Assembly: GCA_031271905.1 (NCBI GenBank)
Contig: JAISUT010000064.1
Span: 1-64,000 of the forward strand
DNA from: Acidobacteriota bacterium
Lineage (GTDB): Bacteria; Acidobacteriota; UBA6911
Direction: 5' to 3'
DNA length: 64,000 nt
The notes beneath the pieces are model-generated. The model made no database searches. It saw nothing but the letters and a program-made list of their open reading frames with translations, and was not told the origin of the DNA. Position 1 is the stretch's first letter; each line of letters starts with the position of its first letter. A program made the translations under genes and the position numbers. Below are positions 61,301 through 61,444 of this stretch, piece by piece.

Positions 61301-61444
61301 ACATCCACGCTCTTGACGCTCATCGTCGTGCCGGTGGCATACTCGCTGCTCGACGACCTGACCGCGCGGCTGTTCAAGGGAACCTCTAAAGACCTCGCCG
61401 ACAAGGCGTCGCCGCAGGTCGGAAAGCAGGGTTCGCCGAGGTAA
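58301..61444 (+). CDS. RND family efflux transporter (HAE1/AcrB-like)
   Basis: 1047 aa, twelve transmembrane helices and two large periplasmic loops. N-terminal [55 protein letters not shown] is typical. The proton-relay acidic pair in TM4 is present ([13 protein letters not shown]), as is [15 protein letters not shown] in TM10. It exports drugs, bile-like or other amphiphiles with the MFP and TolC partners. The native end appears to be [10 protein letters not shown]; the last 16 residues ([16 protein letters not shown]...) are translated from repeat copy k. Confidence 0.94.
   Translation: [1047 protein letters not shown]

Follow-up and report, generated by a model that had tools for sequence, protein, structure and literature searches.

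Two genes in the window, the whole stretch of 64,000 nucleotides of Acidobacteriota DNA analyzed here, encode proteins that end in related peptides. The question raised by this locus is whether these C-terminal tails were written by a mobile element and, if so, whether the tails or the elements themselves matter to the host. The two genes and their tails are listed below.

58301-61444, forward strand: AcrB-type RND efflux pump gene (PF00873, E 5e-276, residues 4-1017 of 1047)
61376-61444, forward strand: tail codons of the RND pump with stop TAA; the lysine codon is shared between target duplication and element
27864-29453, reverse strand: ModF-like tandem ABC ATPase gene (PF00005, two stretches)
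27864-27920, reverse strand: tail codons of the ModF-like ATPase, K-GTSKKLAGKARRSVRVF, with stop TAG

Element copies and the tails of two genes

The window contains 11 copies of one repeated element, found by profile search, and these are the copies a to k of an earlier sequence-only reading of this DNA.

1802-1863, reverse strand: copy a, short form
3991-4064, forward strand: copy b, short form, with 74 bp between the ends
12370-12486, forward strand: copy c, long form
21981-22100, reverse strand: copy d, long form
23541-23601, forward strand: copy e, short form
27856-27918, reverse strand: copy f, short form, flanked by the duplication TGAA (27919-27922 and 27852-27855)
32039-32157, reverse strand: copy g, long form
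53327-53448, forward strand: copy h, long form
55128-55245, reverse strand: copy i, long form
56890-57010, forward strand: copy j, long form
61378-61498, forward strand: copy k, long form, ending in T at its decayed right end (profile match E 6.7e-33; bounds from the duplication)
61374-61377, forward strand: left duplication of copy k, TCAA
61499-61502, forward strand: right duplication of copy k, TCAA

The sequence-only reading had attributed both tails to the element, read in a common frame, and this origin is confirmed, as both open reading frames end within copies and share the frame K-GTSK. The last 21 codons and the stop of the RND pump (ORF 58301-61444, forward strand) come from copy k, and the last 17 codons and the stop of the ModF-like ATPase (ORF 27864-29453, reverse strand) come from copy f. 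The end of the latter protein reads ..RVLRL-K-GTSKKLAGKARRSVRVF, that is, a C-terminus of ..RVLRLKGTSKKLAGKARRSVRVF. The lysine codon AAG at the head of the pump tail had been placed entirely within the target duplication; it consists of two duplicated bases, the AA of TCAA, and the first G of the element, so the proposal was two-thirds right. In copy f the lysine codon is likewise formed by the TGAA duplication and the element's first G, as the family rule predicts.

Both insertions supply a tail, as had been proposed, but neither copy went cleanly into the extreme 3′ end of its gene. In the reconstructed empty site of copy k, no stop appears over 129 codons, and the empty site of copy f, read over 400 bases, contains none. 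In view of these empty sites without a nearby stop, each insertion must have come with an indel or been followed by one, and a one-base indel beside the insertion site would yield short native ends in both genes. Downstream of copy k, positions 61503-61536 hold an A-run and a GC hairpin, which resemble the terminator of a convergent gene; a one-base indel in this A-run would account for the disappearance of the pump's own stop. The product of the convergent gene (61543-63756, reverse strand) carries BACON, He_PIG, and PKD-like repeats besides an FGE-sulfatase domain, and two other repeat families noted in the window, D3 and D6, are the repeat DNA of this gene.

The tail is absent from every orthologue examined of the RND pump, of the ModF-like ATPase (one orthologue), and of a MurC homologue discussed below. 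The closest RND orthologues stop, tail-free, 10-21 residues past the LDDL motif or its equivalent, compared with 27 residues in the pump of the source genome. RND tails differ widely between orthologues, and the pump exchanged one variable tail for another of like length; it did not acquire an additional domain.

The element family

The repeat family is a MITE by generic criteria: it is short, multicopy, and without transposase coding, and it has inverted terminal repeats and a target duplication of fixed length. It occurs in forms of 121 and 63 bp, with 219 copies in the 2.35 Mb examined (69% of the 3.4-Mb genome). The ends consist of the 15-bp GGGAACCTCTAAAAA and its complement (GGGAACC..GGTTCCC), and, by comparison of the consensus sequences, an internal block bounded by two CAAGGCG direct repeats is missing from the short form. 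Target sites are cTTAAg-like. An exact 4-bp duplication is present at 48 of 152 full copies, whereas the other lengths tested give 3 to 12. The terminal repeat has 19 matches in the window, where 1.4 are expected, and 387 in the whole 3.4-Mb genome compared with 2 for the reversed control. Copies were called by profile search; a scan by terminal repeats only misses decayed copies, copy k included. Element density appears uneven, with ∼19 copies in 0.39 Mb (contigs C52, C62, C61, and others) as opposed to ∼1 per 10 kb elsewhere. No match to Rfam above the gathering score was obtained anywhere in the window.

Only one of nine congeners (G002) harbors a sister family, the ends of which are identical while the interior has diverged. 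The stems of the sister family (loci L219-L238) are altered by compensation, and AAAAGCGGAGTT and AATGAGCATTTT, opposed across an internal loop, are retained.

In IS5-type transposition, the duplicated 4 bp resemble YTAR. The consensus target TTAA fits this rule, yet many targets deviate. A search for an autonomous partner among paired ends 0.4-3.5 kb apart and among PF01609 and PF05598 matches, covering G002 and 69% of the source genome, gave no convincing candidate. A DDE transposase is presumably supplied in trans.

Tails across the genome

The phenomenon is wider than the two proteins that were initially described. Within the examined 69% of the genome, an end clearly encoded by the element is seen in at least 13 genes. 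Eight of them use the GTSK frame, namely the RND pump, the ModF-like ATPase, and homologues of MurC, RimP, SpoU methylase, phosphoribosyltransferase, hemerythrin, and a YhgA-like protein. The remaining five carry a three-residue tail (GNL, GGL, or GSL), and the third, arginine-rich frame is used by none of the 13. According to gene calls from a simple codon-usage caller, which are approximate, elements enclose 20 stops and one start, and none of the copies sits in the interior of a gene. Wherever Pfam domains are found, the tail lies at or past the end of the last domain. In eight of the 13 tailed genes, a native stop reappears within 1-4 codons once the element is taken out, when one mismatch in the duplication is allowed.

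MurC is a cell-wall enzyme that is normally essential. The MurC homologue (L020:5780-7207; G000:C64:125780-127207) has an element tail of 21 residues, and removal of the element and one duplication yields ..EAFLKG*, an end like those of the orthologues. MurC proteins of five congeners end 0-4 residues from the insertion point (..EEFLN*, EEFLNS*, EDFLKK*, EEFLKS*, and EQFLRVEK*). Judging from this reconstruction, MurC above all represents a clean insertion, unlike the genes that carry copies k and f.

The explanation that we favor, with a probability of roughly 0.85, is that a non-autonomous MITE inserting at gene 3′ ends yields passive tails, and that the hairpin-forming copies are mostly kept in one orientation. 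The element, with the ends GGGAACC..GGTTCCC, inserts at cTTAAg-like sites and duplicates 4 bp there, presumably driven by a transposase, and insertions within the last few codons or at the stop codon are tolerated. Where the element lands ahead of the stop, the ribosome would read on into it. One frame would then give a tail that begins with GTSK or GASK, reaches at most about 30 residues, and stops internally or at the distal TTTTTAG, and another would terminate at once as GNL*, GGL*, or GSL*. If the target contains TAA, or TA followed by the first G of the element, the stop would be preserved or rebuilt and no tail would form. The peptide would be a passive by-product, and transcribed copies could fold into a strong hairpin.

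Placement and orientation

The copies are concentrated at the 3′ ends of genes. Among 187 full-length copies, 34 adjoin a stop codon, compared with 1.8% predicted from the target motif and the allowed space, and 14 overlap a gene 3′ end. Copies become sparser farther from the stop. Sorted by the arrangement of the flanking genes, 42 copies lie between convergent genes (41 kb), 143 between tandem genes (213 kb), and 28 between divergent genes (98 kb).

The most interesting feature of the family is its orientation. Between tandem genes, 119 copies lie with transcription and 24 against it (p = 2e-16), and the excess persists in a stringent subset (37:9). Approximate gene calls should dilute such a bias and not create it. 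Replication was considered as the main cause of the orientation and rejected, because the bias is alike with either sign of the GC skew and in genes that run against the regional majority strand (34:8 with transcription). Copies are kept mostly in one orientation to the upstream gene, probably because they affect the 3′ end of the mRNA, or disturb it when wrongly oriented. We infer an effect at the level of RNA.

Hairpin structure

The consensus element is predicted to fold at -70 kcal/mol in the sense strand (z -8.9) and at -62 kcal/mol in the antisense strand (z -7.0). Decay of the right end weakens the fold of copy k (-56, z -2.7), whereas copy f and the copy at MurC fold strongly. Within the genome, the apical stem covaries, with 41 double-change cells as opposed to 21.5 in shuffles (maximum 35). 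Covariation was scored by mapping to the consensus; a joint MAFFT alignment of both families gave a fragmented consensus. A comparison of the consensus of the source genome with that of G002 reveals five compensatory and four one-sided changes and no broken pairs, although these two sequences also served to derive the structure. Selection on the hairpin of each copy was examined through G-U versus A-C pairs and set aside, as the signal is significant only when shared alleles are counted and not for rare changes. Among rare substitutions, G-U pairs on the transcribed strand are not significantly favored. The conservation of structure thus appears to hold for active lineages and not for each resident copy.

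The sequence-only reading had described the elements as 3′-end hairpins. The strong folds and the placement bear out this description only as far as structure and position go, and a role of the hairpin at RNA 3′ ends is plausible. A stronger proposal is that copies are retained as functional 3′-end RNA structures, such as terminators or stability hairpins, with tails arising where the unit replaced a native end. The sense orientation, independent of the regional strand, agrees with this proposal, as do the enrichment at gene 3′ ends and a hairpin that combines z of about -9 with covariation; a precedent is provided by ERIC, which alters the stability of the upstream mRNA according to its orientation (PMC2229807). 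However, an identical pattern would result from purifying selection against orientations that do harm, or from biased insertion, rare changes lack the G-U preference, and the outer stem is not followed by a U-run. Retention for such a function is possible but on balance unlikely. We regard as rather doubtful the broader idea that the family forms a genome-wide set of 3′-end RNA structures, kept sense-oriented beside stops, in which the hairpin is conserved by compensation in two species while the sequence diverges and the tails are a by-product. A possible 3′-end role of the RNA hairpin is more interesting than the tails.

Is the tail peptide selected?

The elements had also been said to tag proteins with related peptides. 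A shared tag, for instance a signal for degradation, localization, or interaction, would be in keeping with the eight genes that use a common frame with related sequence and with the third frame that none uses. However, the tail codons evolve as they do in untranslated copies: the ratio of nonsynonymous to synonymous differences from the consensus, counted in the tail reading frame, is 27:9 (3.0) in tail copies, a small sample, and 588:194 (3.03) in all other copies. In addition, the host proteins are functionally unrelated, five other genes end after three residues, and 198 of the 219 copies touch no coding sequence. Selection of the peptide as a tag is therefore very improbable, and the claim of tagging is not upheld. 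Without selection at the peptide level, the tails look passive; they are real at the DNA level, are presumably translated into protein, and, on the evidence of their codons, probably serve no purpose.

The suggestion that the tails are native C-termini that resemble the repeat by chance or recombination has the wide variation of RND tails among orthologues in its favor but is scarcely credible, since the tail sequence belongs to a repeat that has inverted ends, is flanked by target duplications, and lies mostly between genes, orthologues of three families end without it, and native stops are restored on its removal.

Relation to known systems

C-terminal tails derived from MITEs are a kind already known, and the present family itself is apparently undescribed. 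Among the closest parallels are QMITE1 and QMITE2 of Coxiella burnetii, which overlap functional genes only at their 3′ ends (PMC5896051). The QMITE tails consist of 1-16 residues or a stop only and change the protein mass little, although EnhC gains 33 residues; QMITE1 was reported as unique to Coxiella (PMC5896051). Both systems are MITEs that give C-terminal tails at gene 3′ ends. The present family differs in host and, going by the description of the QMITEs, in sequence and ends; it duplicates 4 bp at cTTAAg-like sites and is further characterized by a 5:1 orientation bias and by its insertion at the end of the otherwise essential MurC.

The ERIC, IRU, or RU-1 elements of enterobacteria are about 127 bp long, form hairpins, and contain open frames, and RU-1 lengthens the C-terminus of an amidase and of a threonine dehydrogenase where the normal stop is lost (PMC2759123, PMC2229807). 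They resemble the present family in size, hairpins, and C-terminal extension. However, ERIC has TA termini (PMC2229807), whereas the ends here are GGGAACC..GGTTCCC with a 4-bp duplication, which sets the family outside ERIC; no sequence relation is seen or expected. The Correia or NEMIS elements of Neisseria are one MITE with two size classes, hairpin transcripts, and short-form frames fused to genes (PMC2229807). The two size classes, the hairpins, and the fusion of element frames to genes recur in the present family, but the Correia elements have TA termini and other ends. Rickettsia palindromic elements are palindromic mobile repeats decoded within proteins (PMC2229807); they sit inside reading frames, whereas no copy of the present family lies inside a called gene.

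Biological significance

The family described here, a MITE from an Acidobacteriota genome, joins a small number of examples of mobile DNA rewriting the C-termini of proteins. MurC offers a clean example on a normally essential enzyme, complete with a reconstructed empty site, and the 5:1 orientation bias together with the peak at stop codons makes an effect at the RNA level testable.
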